Source: a virus
DNA: 24,939 nt
IMG/VR virus record: IMGVR_UViG_3300025671_000487
Coordinates: 1-24,939 of that record
Direction: 5' to 3' (one strand)
Below, in pieces: positions 6,613-24,718 of the stretch (its first letter is position 1; each line of letters starts with the position of its first letter). Under the pieces are notes generated by a model, which saw nothing but the letters and a program-made list of their open reading frames with translations, had not been told where the DNA came from and made no database searches. A program made the position numbers and the translations under genes.

Positions 6613-7131
6613 ATGGCGACCGTTCAAACCTTCGGCGTTGACGCCGACCGAATCCTCGCGAGTCTTCCTCAAATCATCATCGACTCCGGCACGGGTATTC
6701 TACTCACGACCACGCGAGCGACGACGCTCATCAACGCCGAAGCGGCCCGGATTAACGGGCTCATCGACGGCGCGTTCGGGTCGGGTACAAGTGCCGACAT
6801 CGCGACCGATACGGCGAGCGTCGAATATGCGAACGCGCAACGACTAGTCGTCGCCGCCGCGATTCCGCCGATCCTTCGGGCGTCGCATCATCCGACGACG
6901 ATTGACGCCGACACTCGCGCGTTGCTCGACGACCTCGCCGCTCAACTTGACCTATTGATGACCGACCCGTCGCGCGCGTTGGGTCGCATCGACGCGACCA
7001 GCGTTAGCGCGCCTCGAACGCGCTTCGCCGACCTGAACCTCTCGACAACCTTAACCGCGAAGAGGGCGCGCCGCCGCTTCGACGGGCGCTCGAACTTGCT
7101 GGGCGTTGACGAAGGGGGCTTCGAGTTTTGA
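6613..7131 (+). CDS. Head-completion/adaptor protein (gp36-like candidate)
   Basis: The 172-aa reading uses ATG 6613, which has GGAGG eight bases upstream; a TTG at 6598 lies on top of this site and is rejected. The protein is mainly helical, with repeated Ala/Asp/Thr-rich helices (AEAARINGLIDGAFGSGTSADI, in part) and a basic segment TAKRARRRFDGRSN near the end. First gene after the capsid, it sits where the head-tail adaptor (HK97 gp6-like or Mu gp36-like) is normally encoded. Such proteins bind the portal ring and extend the DNA channel. I assign the role from position and helical build only. Confidence 0.5.
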   Translation: MATVQTFGVDADRILASLPQIIIDSGTGILLTTTRATTLINAEAARINGLIDGAFGSGTSADIATDTASVEYANAQRLVVAAAIPPILRASHHPTTIDADTRALLDDLAAQLDLLMTDPSRALGRIDATSVSAPRTRFADLNLSTTLTAKRARRRFDGRSNLLGVDEGGFEF

Positions 7132-20137: not shown

Positions 20138-20404
20138 ATGAGCGACGAAACGACGAACCCTTCGGCGGCGATGCCGTCGAAGTATGCAGCCGCCGCGCTC
20201 ATCATAGCGGCGCTAACCGGCGGCGGTGTCGGATCAACCGTTAGCCTTGTTTCAGCGCCCGACCTCGAACTCGCGAAGCGCGACGCGGTCGACACTGCGC
20301 TAGAGCGAATGCGCGCCGAAGTTGATCGCGAGATCGCGCCGATGCGCGGTCGCCTCGAACGCATCGAAGAAAAGCTCGACCGGCTCATCGAACGGGCCGA
20401 TTGA
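20138..20404 (+). CDS. Single-TM coiled-coil protein, i-spanin-like candidate
   Basis: The 88-aa reading starts at ATG 20138 with a GGGGG tract about seven bases upstream. Residues 16-39 form one hydrophobic segment (KYAAAALIIAALTGGGVGST, in part). Residues 43-88 are a charged heptad-type helix (ERMRAEVDREIAPMRGRLER, in part). An N-terminal anchor with a periplasmic coiled coil is the build of inner-membrane spanins (Rz-like), which pair with a lipoprotein to fuse the membranes. Here the lipoprotein gene lies upstream with the holin candidate between, so the order is unusual. A holin-type or tail-associated membrane role cannot be ruled out. Confidence 0.55.
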   Translation: MSDETTNPSAAMPSKYAAAALIIAALTGGGVGSTVSLVSAPDLELAKRDAVDTALERMRAEVDREIAPMRGRLERIEEKLDRLIERAD

Positions 20405-21849
20405 TGAGTTGGGTTAGCGCTAGCGAAGCGGCCCGACATTGGGGCCTGGGCCACTATCAAGCGGTTCATAAACGCGCGCGCCGACATCCTGACAAATACC
20501 CGTCAAGACCTCATCCGACGCGCAAGGGCTGGCGTCAATATTGGATCGGCGACGAACCGCCGCCGGGCGCTCATCGCGAGGACCTGGGCGACCAGCTCGC
20601 CGCGCCGCCGGCGCTTAAGCATTCGCCCGTCGAAGGTTGGGTCGAGCGCGAAGGCTATGTATACGACGGCCGGCGCGACGTGTACGTCTTGACGCTTCCA
20701 AGTCATCGCCGACCCTTCGTCTTAGACGGCGCGCGGCTTCGTCAGATATGGCGACGATACGCCGGCGACAAGGCGAACATCGACGAAATATGTCGCGACT
20801 TCGGCTTCGACCGTCAAACCTTTATCGACCTCAAACGGGCCCTTCGATTGACGAAGACGCGCGCGCCCTTTACCGACGAAGAGCTCGACGCGCTGGGCGA
20901 AGAGGACCTGGTCGCCGACGTCTTGCGCGCGAAAGAGCAGCGGGTTATGGCGCGCGCGCAAGCGTCGAACTGGCGACGGATCGAACGCCTCGCGCACAAC
21001 CGGCAATGGTTGCGCGAAACGGTTCGCGCGGCGTTGACCGACCTGGTCGGGCCGGTCGAGTTGCCGCCGCCGGTCGGCGAGCCCGAAGAGGTCGCCGTTG
21101 TCGTCGGCTGGTCAGATCTTCACGTCGGCAAGCGCGCCGCCGGGTCGAGCGTCGGGCTCGACGTTCAGCTCGCGAGGCTTCGGGCGCTCGCCGCCGATGT
21201 CGTCGCAAGGGTCGCCGCGCTAAGCCCTTCGCGCGTCATCGTCGCTTGCACGGGCGATCTTGTTCATTCTGATACGCAATCCCAAACGACGACGAAAGGC
21301 ACACCACAAGGGCCACAAAGCGAAGGGTCTACTTCAATGGCGCTTCGCGGCGCTTGCGAGCTAACCGCCGGGCTCATCCTCAAATTGACCGAAGTCGCGC
21401 CGACGGTCGAAGTCGTCGTCGTACCCGGCAACCATGACGAATTGCTTTCGCGCGCGGTCGGGTTCTACCTCGAAGCGGCGTTCGACGGGTCCTCGCGCGT
21501 CATCATCGACGCCGACGAACGACGCCGGCGTAAATGGTCGCGCTGGCGCGAGGTCCCGATCTGTTTCTTTCATGGGGATAAGTTGAAGGGCGACCGGCTC
21601 GCCGCGTTGCCGGGTCGCGAGTGCCCGGTCGGGGCCGATCCTCGACGCGCCGTCTTGTTCCACGGGCACTATCACAAGCGCGCCCTTCGTCAAGACGTCG
21701 TCGGCGGCTTCGATGTCGTGTGTTTAGCGTCGCCAGCCGGCCCCGACGACTGGCATCACGAACACGGCTTCGAGGGCGGCGCGAAGGCGATAACGCTTGC
21801 CGTCATCGCGCCGTCGGGGTTGACGGCGCTTGAATGGGTTCGAGCCTAG
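20404..21849 (+). CDS. Calcineurin-like metallophosphoesterase with N-terminal winged-helix domain
   Basis: A 481-aa protein starting at ATG 20404, which overlaps the previous TGA. The full metallophosphoesterase set is present: SDLH (D238, H240), TGDLVHSD (D285), PGNHDE (N343, H344), FFHGD (H390) and FHGHYHKR (H422, H424). The N-terminus (VSASEAARHWGLGHYQAVHK, then RRHPDKYP...WRQYWIGDE) looks like a winged-helix DNA-binding domain, and a second HTH-like stretch lies at 127-160. The whole therefore resembles a DNA-targeted nuclease or phosphodiesterase; the substrate cannot be read from sequence. It is the last + strand gene, after the lysis cluster, and converges with the leftward genes. Confidence 0.88.
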   Translation: MSWVSASEAARHWGLGHYQAVHKRARRHPDKYPSRPHPTRKGWRQYWIGDEPPPGAHREDLGDQLAAPPALKHSPVEGWVEREGYVYDGRRDVYVLTLPSHRRPFVLDGARLRQIWRRYAGDKANIDEICRDFGFDRQTFIDLKRALRLTKTRAPFTDEELDALGEEDLVADVLRAKEQRVMARAQASNWRRIERLAHNRQWLRETVRAALTDLVGPVELPPPVGEPEEVAVVVGWSDLHVGKRAAGSSVGLDVQLARLRALAADVVARVAALSPSRVIVACTGDLVHSDTQSQTTTKGTPQGPQSEGSTSMALRGACELTAGLILKLTEVAPTVEVVVVPGNHDELLSRAVGFYLEAAFDGSSRVIIDADERRRRKWSRWREVPICFFHGDKLKGDRLAALPGRECPVGADPRRAVLFHGHYHKRALRQDVVGGFDVVCLASPAGPDDWHHEHGFEGGAKAITLAVIAPSGLTALEWVRA

Positions 21850-22853: not shown

Positions 22854-23332
22854 AACTCAACCTCCCAAACTTCAATGATCATCGACGGGCCTTCGCCTTC
22901 GGCGGCGTACCATTTCCGGGCGACCAGCTCGACGACCGAACGGTCATCGTGAATCACAACCGGTCGTCGCTTCGCCGGGTCGCCTTGAAGCGCATCAAGC
23001 GCCGCTTTCGCAAAGTTGTCTACGTCGGGCGTCGTCGGTCGAGCAACCCGGCCCGGCGTCGCTCGCCAGCGCGCCGCCGACCAGCCGCAAGACTTAAGCG
23101 CCGCCGGCAAGCTCTTCGGTCGAGCGGTTACGGCATCGACGACAATGCGAAGCGGCCCGCTTAAAGGCGTTGATTTAGACCATAGAGGCCAGATCGCCAG
23201 CGCGGCGGCGTCGTACCAGACTTCAAGGCTCGAAGGGCTGTAGACCCGTCTAGAGCGCCCGGCGAACCGTGGGCGTTGCCAGCTTTGAGGCGGGCCCGGA
23301 ATGACGACCCTAAACGTCGATTCATCGCTCAT
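22850..23332 (-). CDS. rusA: RusA-family Holliday junction resolvase
   Basis: The 160-aa reading starts at ATG 23332 with GAGG eight bases upstream; the longer frame would extend deep into the preceding gene. Near the front lies IPGPPQSWQRPRF, the typical RusA opening strand and loop. The catalytic region is TPDVDNFAKA (D103, D105, N106, K109), then VIHDDRSVVELVARKWYA (D129, D130, K140), matching the family's acidic metal site and following lysine. RusA cuts four-way junctions during recombination or before packaging, so it would resolve branched replication products. It overlaps the HTH gene by 11 bp and the 108-aa gene by 4 bp. Confidence 0.92.
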   Translation of the reverse strand: MSDESTFRVVIPGPPQSWQRPRFAGRSRRVYSPSSLEVWYDAAALAIWPLWSKSTPLSGPLRIVVDAVTARPKSLPAALKSCGWSAARWRATPGRVARPTTPDVDNFAKAALDALQGDPAKRRPVVIHDDRSVVELVARKWYAAEGEGPSMIIEVWEVEL

Positions 23333-23897
23333 CGTCGAAACCTCGCGCGATTGCTTCGAGCGCCGCTTCGCGCGTCGAATACGCGGCATAGTCGTCGCCC
23401 GGTTCGAGGACAATATAACGACCGACTTCGACTTCGTCGCCGCGATCGGTCAACCGGGCGATCTTGCCGGTCGCGATGTGCGACCATGCTTCGTCGTCGT
23501 CTTCGCGGTCGAGCAAGCGCCAGCGCCCGACGATCGGCCCCTGGGCGAAGACCGACGCGCCGCCGCCGCGTCCTCGAATCTCGACACCCTCTTCGAGCAA
23601 GACGCGCCGAACAGAGTTCGCGCCGATGCGCTCGCGCTTCATAATCTTATTGATCGGCTCGCCGGCTTTGTAGGCTTCGGCGATGCGACGTCGCATCGCG
23701 TTCGGTAGCTTGTGAACCTTGCGGGGCTTCGCGGCTTTCGAGCGCCGCCGCCCAGCTCGCCGGAGCAAGGCATAGACCGACGACAAGGGATAGCCGGTTT
23801 TCGCGGCGATTTGAGGGCCTGAAAGCCCGGCGTCGAATAGCGCGGCGACCTCTTCGACTTGGACGGCCGTATAATTTGAGTGTGCCTTCTTTTTCAA
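23322..23897 (-). CDS. DNA-binding protein with two helix-turn-helix segments
   Basis: Starting at TTG 23897, with GGGG six bases upstream, gives a 191-aa protein. Two HTH-like segments are clear. One, at about residues 10-50, is LSGPQIAAKTGYPLSSVYAL; the other, at about 64-108, is INKIMKRERIGANSVRRVLL. Both resemble the resolvase-type (Hin-like) HTH fold. Residues 47-62 are basic, and a mixed alpha/beta C-terminus follows (VGRYIVLEPGDDYAAYSTRE). It may regulate early genes, or bind repeats like those in the gap upstream. The start is uncertain: TTG 23909 and TTG 24056 are also in frame, but the latter would translate through dyads and a T-arm-like sequence. The stop overlaps RusA. Confidence 0.75.
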   Translation of the reverse strand: MKKKAHSNYTAVQVEEVAALFDAGLSGPQIAAKTGYPLSSVYALLRRAGRRRSKAAKPRKVHKLPNAMRRRIAEAYKAGEPINKIMKRERIGANSVRRVLLEEGVEIRGRGGGASVFAQGPIVGRWRLLDREDDDEAWSHIATGKIARLTDRGDEVEVGRYIVLEPGDDYAAYSTREAALEAIARGFDDER

Positions 23898-23985
23898 CGC
23901 CGGCCCCAATGGAAAGCGACGCCGGTCATAAAGGCCGAAAGGACAAACAAGAAACCCTCTTATACGACCGGCGTCGAAGTCGAGG

Positions 23986-24002
23986 TCGGGGTTTGAACCC
24001 GA
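23986..24002 (-). other. tRNA T-arm-like hairpin (candidate att core or tRNA fragment)
   Basis: Read leftward, the stem TCGGG/CCCGA is perfect over 5 bp with the loop TTCAAAC, which meets the TTCRANY rule of tRNA T-loops. The following 7 bases CCTCGAC can pair, with one G-U, with GTCGGGG (24023-24017). Only 21 bases separate that arm from the T-stem instead of the normal 48, so no whole tRNA exists. Confidence 0.4.
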
Positions 24003-24043
24003 AAGCCGCCGACCGGCCCCGACAAAGCCCGTGTGTTTTGCTC

Positions 24044-24061
24044 CATACTTGGACAAGTATG
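24044..24061. promoter_or_regulatory. 18-bp palindromic operator candidate
   Basis: CATACTTG (24044-24051) and CAAGTATG (24054-24061) are perfect 8-bp arms around a 2-bp centre. AT-rich arms stand out in this genome and match the size of phage repressor sites. The neighbouring double-HTH protein is a possible ligand, by position only. Confidence 0.5.
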
Positions 24062-24067
24062 TTTGAA

Positions 24068-24100
24068 TCGCAAGCCCGACACGGGCGAACGCGCTTGCGA
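24068..24100 (-). terminator. Inverted repeat after the 123-aa gene
   Basis: TCGCAAGC (24068-24075) and GCTTGCGA (24093-24100) form an 8-bp stem. The 17-nt loop can pair again (CCCG/CGGG, the CGGG using a base next to the stem). It follows the stop at 24111 on the - strand. There is no T-tract, so termination is only one option. Confidence 0.4.
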
Positions 24101-24110
24101 CATGAACGGT

Positions 24111-24482
24111 CTACGCGCGCAACCATGCCCGAAGTTCGCCCTTCGTCAGTCGCGTACCATCGACCCAACAAGCGCAAGACGGTTCGTCGTCATCGTCGCG
24201 CCGGCCGACCTCTTCGCCCATCGTCGCGATTTCGGCGGCGACGTTTCGCGATCCAACCGCGCCGTTGAATTGCCAGAGGCAGTCGTCGAAGAACAGCTCG
24301 ACGCCGAAGATCCGAAGATGGTCGAGGCGCTGGTCGGCTTTGAAGCCCAAAACGCGCAACCACGTTGCCAGCTCGGCGAGCGCGCGCCGCTGGTCTTTCG
24401 GGTCGTCGGTCAATCCCATAGTGCGCGCCGTCGCGCCCAGCGCCGCGCAAAGTCGTCGAACGGTATCGGTATAAGTGCTCAT
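24111..24482 (-). CDS. Hypothetical 123-aa protein
   Basis: Starts at ATG 24482, overlapping the TGA of the upstream gene by ATGA, with AAGGA nine bases upstream. The first half is helical (YTDTVRRLCAALGATARTMG) and includes DQRRALAELATWLRVLGFKA. The second is acidic (RRDDDDEPSCACWVDG) with a CxC pair. No family is recognised. Translational coupling to the Cys-rich gene upstream suggests a shared operon. Its leader contains the AAGGACAAAC motif also used by the two moron genes. Confidence 0.7.
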   Translation of the reverse strand: MSTYTDTVRRLCAALGATARTMGLTDDPKDQRRALAELATWLRVLGFKADQRLDHLRIFGVELFFDDCLWQFNGAVGSRNVAAEIATMGEEVGRRDDDDEPSCACWVDGTRLTKGELRAWLRA

Positions 24483-24718
24483 CGTTGTTTGTCCTTACAT
24501 TCATGGGGTTTGTATCCGATGCGCGCGTTTCGAGGCGCGCTTCGAAGGTCGATGACGCGGCCCGTCAAAACTTCGCCGCGCCGCGTTATGAAGAGGTCCT
24601 CGCCGTCGCCGACGACGCAAGCCCAGAGCGACGCGCCGACCAGCTCGCCGCCCGGCAAGCGAACGCAAGCCGCGCCGCAAGCCGGGCAAAATTGCGACCT
24701 GGTCGGCGAAGGGCTCAT
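24479..24718 (-). CDS. Small Cys-rich protein, zinc-ribbon-like
   Basis: A 79-aa protein with ATG 24718 overlapping the preceding stop (TGATG). FCPACGAACV (C11, C14, C18) is a zinc-knuckle half. C34 and the PHEC end (H72, C74) could supply the remaining ligands, so one zinc site is plausible. Small zinc-ribbon proteins are common in phage early regions, where their job is usually unknown. The last codons (CKDKQR) encode the ribosome-binding site of the next gene. Confidence 0.7.
   Translation of the reverse strand: MSPSPTRSQFCPACGAACVRLPGGELVGASLWACVVGDGEDLFITRRGEVLTGRVIDLRSAPRNARIGYKPHECKDKQR

Follow-up and report, generated by a model that had tools for sequence, protein, structure and literature searches.

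A conserved structured RNA with a tRNA-like domain in an intergenic gap of an uncultured tailed-phage group

What does a tRNA T-arm do between two genes of a phage? The locus considered here lies in a 24,939-base virus record with linear ends (the whole of which we call the window), in a 213-nt gap that extends from the TAG stop of one minus-strand gene to the TTG start of the next. A sequence-only reading had found in this gap a T-arm, an acceptor-like pairing, an 18-bp palindrome and an 8-bp inverted repeat, and had suggested a control or integration site. As shown by comparison with related contigs, the gap encodes a conserved structured RNA of an uncultured tailed-phage group, on the strand of the flanking genes. 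The dyads, whose lack of conservation had been named beforehand as counter-evidence, are kept in the relatives, which supports the first half of the suggestion in the sense of a control or RNA element, whereas the integration half did not hold up.

A conserved structured RNA between two phage genes

Taken one at a time, the features of the gap carry little weight. The T-arm is present on the minus strand with five Watson-Crick pairs and an intact GTTCRANNC (read on the plus strand, its base at position 56 is T). In simulations a window is expected to hold 0.12-0.25 all-Watson-Crick T-arms over its two strands, or 0.37-0.69 if G-U pairs are allowed; one other T-arm lies at 7023 on the minus strand. 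The acceptor-like pairing is there as well (GTCGGGG with CCTCGAC, 7 bp including one G-U), the simulated expectation for a T-arm with a 7-bp acceptor being 0.05-0.13 per window. The palindrome has the form 8+2+8, of which about 1.3 are expected per window in simulation, and is therefore uninformative by itself. Judged by chance alone, T-arm and palindrome are only mildly unusual. The inverted repeat proved real and its count did not, as there are two of 8 bp (GCCCGTGT with ACACGGGC, and TCGCAAGC with GCTTGCGA, the latter within an 11-nt, 91% pair), interleaved in the fashion of an H-type pseudoknot; a 14-nt, 93% complementary pair (the long helix of Table 1) was missing from the earlier description. 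When folded, the interval 23898-24110 scored near expectation (z -1.55; 16 of 200 shuffles), and 23965-24030 alone did no better than shuffles (z +0.45), the T-arm not being formed. It is the joint retention of these singly weak features in relatives, with compensatory changes, that settles their reality.

Relatives were found among viral contigs: L002 (IMGVR_UViG_3300032087_005280; exonuclease 78%), L007 (IMGVR_UViG_3300022187_006391) and L019 (IMGVR_UViG_3300025151_007521). The upstream protein, which has no family in Pfam or PHROGs, has homologues that are 69% and 76% identical to it, the latter in L007. The RNA is present, always in gene sense, in all four contigs found to span the junction between this gene and the helix-turn-helix gene, and since L002 and L019 closely resemble one another these four represent about three lineages. 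In each of them the stop codon of the same upstream gene lies 10-14 nt before the RNA, and the same helix-turn-helix gene comes after it, in gaps of 213 (window), 324 (L002), 330 (L019) and 260 nt (L007). Contigs L012-L016, with a 100% identical portal, and L018, with a related one, end before the RNA locus and are uninformative either way; L004, L006, L008 and L017 are the same record as L002 and were left out of the count. Searching viral contigs with each of the two flanking proteins singly gave nothing useful, an alignment search with RusA returned the L002 record again and nothing else, and a wider alignment search with the upstream protein returned L007 and the L002 record, with no others. 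Cultured phages yielded no close relative by DNA and protein search, RusA and terminase matching distant homologues there, and a protein search of plasmids yielded no match. Among the 301 genomes of the phylum of G001, model R1 had one match, whose E of 0.0093 is at chance level over so many genomes; the portal protein had none in 25 genomes of the order of G001, an empty answer that is uninformative in that search.

Some further observations concern these relatives. L002 and the window are permuted contigs, the L002 record having about 6.9 kb (helicase, methylase) that are not in the window and lacking roughly 9.1-17 kb of the window; at L002:9312-10727 (+) it encodes a 471-aa protein in which a ParB-like N-terminal part is fused to an N6/N4 DNA methylase. 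A 3.2-kb piece with sharp ends, 95% identical to L002, lies in an Anaerolineales MAG (L003:6000-9174, CP070811.1). It breaks the exonuclease at residue 389, with a tRNA-Leu about 590 bp beyond, and may be either the remains of a prophage or a chimeric assembly; the adjoining 18-kb stretches, L010 and L011, have no phage match. The helix-turn-helix gene varies in length (window 23322-23897 (-), L002 6361-7062 (-), L007 6591-7331 (+)), the window copy being without about 40-50 residues, including a helix-turn-helix stretch, that the L002 copy has.

Pairing was counted over 26 named pairs on an alignment of the four sequences (A11), giving 104 cells. Paired cells make up 98.1% of these, against 37.5-49.0% when the structure is slid; seven pairs change on both sides, as many as in 1 of 500 shuffles, and ten cells hold double changes, which none of 500 shuffles reached. 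On four of five measures only 0-1 of the 500 shuffles came as far, further pair types being ordinary (194 of 500), and these controls flatter the structure because the sequences counted are those it was drawn from, with L002 and L019 forming a close pair. Compensatory pairs occur in helix b (3 of 8), the T-stem (3 of 5) and the acceptor (1 of 6), with none in helix a. MAFFT placed the window's 3' domain, TCCAA hairpin stem and short arm out of register; these were judged by folding and by eye, and the misaligned hairpin stem was for that reason left out of the count. A covariance model built from the three relatives, with the window excluded, matches 23976-24098 at 57.8 bits (E 3.9e-10), its next match in 140,147 bases reaching 13.2 bits (E 0.67), and the same alignment without base pairs finds the window at 14.3 bits (E 0.0028), so that most of the signal is pairing; all these E-values are rough, coming from short calibrations.

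The window-excluded model and its pair-free control refute the notion that the dyads arose by chance in GC-rich DNA, which the near-expected frequency of the single features would favour and against which conservation and covariation also stand. Recoding, in which translation would pass the upstream stop and continue into the next gene, could appeal to a frame that is open in the window for 71 codons from the stop to the TTG start. However, reading on in the frame of the upstream gene meets 0 stops in the window, 3 each in L002 and L019 and 2 in L007, the L007 gap is out of frame, and on these sequences the gap does not look coding. Chance or recoding thus has next to no probability in our judgement, and both were set aside.

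From 5' to 3', the element, which measures 180-225 nt across the homologues, runs through the 5' arms of helices a and b, three bases, the 3' arm of helix a, 35-49 nt with the TCCAA-loop hairpin, the 3' arm of helix b, a YUU spacer, the tRNA-like domain (44-58 nt), a UUY spacer and a long, slightly interrupted helix (14-17 pairs) that encloses shorter hairpins (Table 1). Because the 3' arm of helix a lies between both strands of helix b, a pseudoknot results if helix a forms. Helix a is likely, on the basis of conserved sequence and not of covariation, and it competes with nested pairings in pseudoknot-free folds. In such folds of all four homologues its 3' arm (24068-24075, minus strand) has an alternative partial pairing inside helix b, which makes a two-state switch possible. 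The palindrome region is in the relatives a hairpin with a conserved TCCAA loop and not a symmetric operator; a DNA operator was set aside. The 3' domain folds strongly in the four homologues (z -4.3 to -6.2; 0 of 200 shuffles each), despite arms that differ in sequence among the window, L002/L019 and L007.

Table 1. Coordinates of the genes and RNA features in the window
Feature	Position	Strand	Basis or remark
Terminase and portal genes		+	
Exonuclease gene	20401-21849	+	
RusA-like resolvase gene		-	Minus-strand block, with P0001 and P0002
P0001, downstream gene, 191 aa, multi helix-turn-helix protein, TTG start	23322-23897	-	
P0002, upstream gene, 123 aa	24111-24482	-	Pfam and PHROGs searched
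Whole structured RNA, about 184 nt	23917-24100	-	Four homologues, covariance model, pair counts
Pseudoknot helix a, 5' arm TCGCAAGC	24093-24100	-	Core GCARGC/GCTTGC in all four; no double changes
Helix b, 5' arm GCCCGTGT	24079-24086	-	100% of cells paired; 3 of 8 pairs changed on both sides
Pseudoknot helix a, 3' arm GCTTGCGA	24068-24075	-	Inverted-repeat search, pair counts
Hairpin with TCCAA in loop (18-bp palindrome)	24044-24061	-	TCCAA and hairpin here in all four
Helix b, 3' arm ACACGGGC	24027-24034	-	Pair counts
tRNA-like domain	23979-24023	-	Same shape when folded alone, all four
Acceptor	24017-24023 with 23979-23985	-	
Short arm	24005-24017	-	Base 24017 common to acceptor and short arm
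T-arm TCGGG-TTCAAAC-CCCGA	23986-24002	-	
Predicted RNase P cut, 5' of acceptor G1	24023-24024	-	Inferred; U-1 and G1-C72 in all four
3' domain	23917-23976	-	Long helix 23963-23976 with 23917-23930, closing shorter hairpins

The tRNA-like domain and the attachment-site question

Folded alone, the tRNA-like domain takes the form of an acceptor, one short arm (two in L007) and a T-arm in all four homologues, and barely beats mononucleotide shuffles (z -0.9 to -1.9). The acceptor helix adjoins the T-arm, as seen in sequence, fold and covariation. The T-stem is TCGGG/CCCGA in the window, GGAGG/CCTCC in L002 and L019 and AGGGG/CCCCT in L007, and the corresponding loops are TTCAAAC, TTCGAGC and TGCGACT; GTTCRANNC with a 5-bp stem is found in the window, L002 and L019, the L007 loop departing from it once. 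Two features of RNase P substrates, U-1 and G1-C72, are present in all four homologues. A 3' RCCA is absent, C72 being followed by UUC or UUU, the acceptors are imperfect in the relatives, and the full-length minimum-energy fold of L007 is without the usual acceptor, which the isolated L007 domain does form.

Rfam has no match at its gathering thresholds in the window, and none over the RNA up to E 5 in the window, L002 and L007 (tRNA, tmRNA and ribozymes included). No anticodon arm occurs in any of the four homologues and ARAGORN finds no tRNA or tmRNA gene in the window, L002 or L007; together with the maintenance of the stems through compensatory changes, this makes a decayed phage tRNA gene very improbable, even if a kept acceptor and T-arm with the anticodon arm missing is what such a gene might leave behind. 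That reading was set aside, and tmRNA was rejected on the negative ARAGORN and Rfam results.

T-arm and acceptor-like sequence are also what an attachment site built from the 3' end of a host tRNA would offer, and the T-arms differ between the phages as if each fitted the tRNA of its own host. The earlier remark that no integrase is in view agrees with PHROGs and Pfam scans of 19 window proteins, and the integrase that was to be sought outside the window did not turn up among 7 L002/L009 proteins, from the relative carrying the part missing in the window (PHROGs, Pfam); in both cases the proteins scanned are a subset of the ORFs. The helix-turn-helix protein and its homologues match resolvase/invertase families through the helix-turn-helix alone. 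The 24-mer of T-arm and acceptor occurs, at up to two mismatches, in 0 of 301 genomes of one phylum, a weak search since this phylum, which may not be the host's, was chosen only for a MAG with an L002-like piece. Covariation, as read from the alignment, is a stronger argument than this absence: helix b and the 5' strand of the acceptor co-vary with their partners, a coupling for which an attachment core would have no need, leaving the attachment reading unsupported, and the L007 T-loop is off the tRNA consensus. We consider an attachment site extremely improbable.

Possible roles of the RNA

Our preferred reading, to which we give a probability of roughly 0.4, is that the RNA may be a processing or punctuation element of an operon transcript, possibly an early one, that is cut by RNase P and protected by its pseudoknot. 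According to this model, the acceptor and T-arm, stacked on each other, would be what host RNase P recognises, with cleavage immediately 5' of acceptor G1 (24024/24023). This would leave the upstream message with a compact pseudoknot at its 3' end, a barrier to 3' exonucleases. The downstream message, for the helix-turn-helix protein and RusA, would start close to the stable hairpin, or at it after further trimming. In this way the two parts of the operon could differ in expression level.

Li and Altman reportedly described, in 2003, RNase P acting on polycistronic operon mRNAs. Hairpins made of acceptor, T-stem and T-loop are efficient model substrates of bacterial RNase P, according to the available portion of PMC11143913, and in MALAT1/mascRNA RNase P cuts a tRNA-like structure that comes after a protective fold (available text of PMC6888369). 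Hammerheads flanking prophage genes were proposed, in the accessible part of PMC3088659, to divide phage transcripts. A type II hammerhead (Rfam RF02276; 37.3 bits against a gathering threshold of 37) lies at L007:8252-8316 (+), between two genes downstream of RusA, in the same gene block as the RNA. Up to E 5, Rfam finds no hammerhead in either the window or L002, and a loose hammerhead core pattern gives none in L002 and three matches in the window, all inside genes and looking like chance. The precedents of RNase P substrates, MALAT1 and hammerheads lead us to judge processing of the operon message the likeliest role, while the lack of RCCA, the imperfect acceptors and the full-length fold of L007 lower our certainty about it. 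RNase P reportedly needs a 3' RCCA to cleave one synthetic pseudoknot substrate (PMC12710915, in the portion available).

One may speculate further, in a form that is possible but that we hold as doubtful, that this is a new phage RNA family in which pseudoknot, minimal tRNA mimic and branched hairpin would act as one unit, hijacking host RNase P, splitting the operon mRNA and capping both new ends. Such a family would be a phage counterpart of the end-forming device of MALAT1/mascRNA.

A free-standing, trans-acting RNA is unlikely, though it deserves some weight. Its tRNA-like domain would recruit or titrate a host tRNA-handling factor, such as RNase P, the CCA-adding enzyme, a T-loop modifying enzyme or a tRNA-targeting defence, the rest serving as scaffold. 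This would fit the retention of the whole 180-225 nt unit with its stable 3' domain, and of the T-loop consensus in three of four homologues while the stems vary. However, the fixed place of the RNA between the same two genes in all four contigs suits an operon role, and simple scans of 23700-24500 show no promoter-like site (by a sigma-70-type consensus) and no terminator-like site on the minus strand.

That constant position before the same gene would equally suit a cis-regulatory leader of the helix-turn-helix gene, in which GCTTGC re-pairs between helix a and a nested pairing in helix b and thereby switches expression, perhaps upon binding of a phage DNA-binding protein or a host factor, and mutually exclusive pairings are indeed visible in the folds. 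Yet we find such a leader, although a serious alternative like the trans-acting RNA, rather unlikely: the element stands at differing distances from the start codon, in gaps of 213-330 nt, a conserved occlusion of the start region was not found when looked for unsystematically, and the T-arm is left unexplained.

Should RNase P cut the element, as in the preferred model of operon punctuation, phages would be using a host tRNA enzyme for dividing transcripts, and biochemistry would gain a natural compact RNase P target. Whatever its function, this is a covariation-supported RNA unmatched in Rfam 15, and it comes with a concrete model for metagenome searches.

Comparison with known systems

Transfer RNA-like structures are well known in RNA viruses; dedicated tRNA-like elements are, to our knowledge, rare in DNA phages. 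The helix order of the phage RNA resembles what we take to be that of the pistol ribozyme and presumably differs from that of HDV, there being no P3 between the two helices of the phage RNA; pistol and HDV-like ribozymes were both rejected, as neither gives an Rfam match. With tmRNA and phage tRNAs the RNA shares a consensus-loop T-arm and an acceptor stem, but it has neither anticodon arm nor CCA and is negative with ARAGORN and Rfam. Theta (HDV-like) ribozymes are likewise structured RNAs beside a tRNA-type fold in phages, as far as the available text of PMC10879173 goes, whereas the present RNA has no Rfam ribozyme match. Hammerheads that flank phage genes are also RNA elements lying between such genes, and the accessible part of PMC3088659 proposes that they divide long transcripts; in contrast, the phage RNA has no hammerhead match and its proposed cleavage is by a host enzyme.

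The structures cut by RNase P in bacterial polycistronic mRNAs, and minimal RNase P substrates, resemble the RNA in their intergenic helix of acceptor and T-arm, with G1-C72 and U-1; the phage RNA differs in being a conserved, dedicated element with a pseudoknot domain and a 3' hairpin, and in having no RCCA. The 3' end of MALAT1 with mascRNA, from a eukaryotic long non-coding RNA, likewise combines a compact stabilising fold with a small tRNA-like structure directly downstream, which RNase P cuts (PMC6888369, in the text available). Here the stabilising fold is likely a pseudoknot rather than a triple helix, the setting is a phage operon, a long hairpin is added downstream, and cleavage is predicted. 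In the titles and opening lines of abstracts of open-licence PMC papers, no such element appears among the matches listed for phage RNAs that are structured or tRNA-like, operons cut by RNase P, and ribozymes next to phage tRNAs. The element therefore appears to work like known tRNA-like structures, in a combination that appears to be new.
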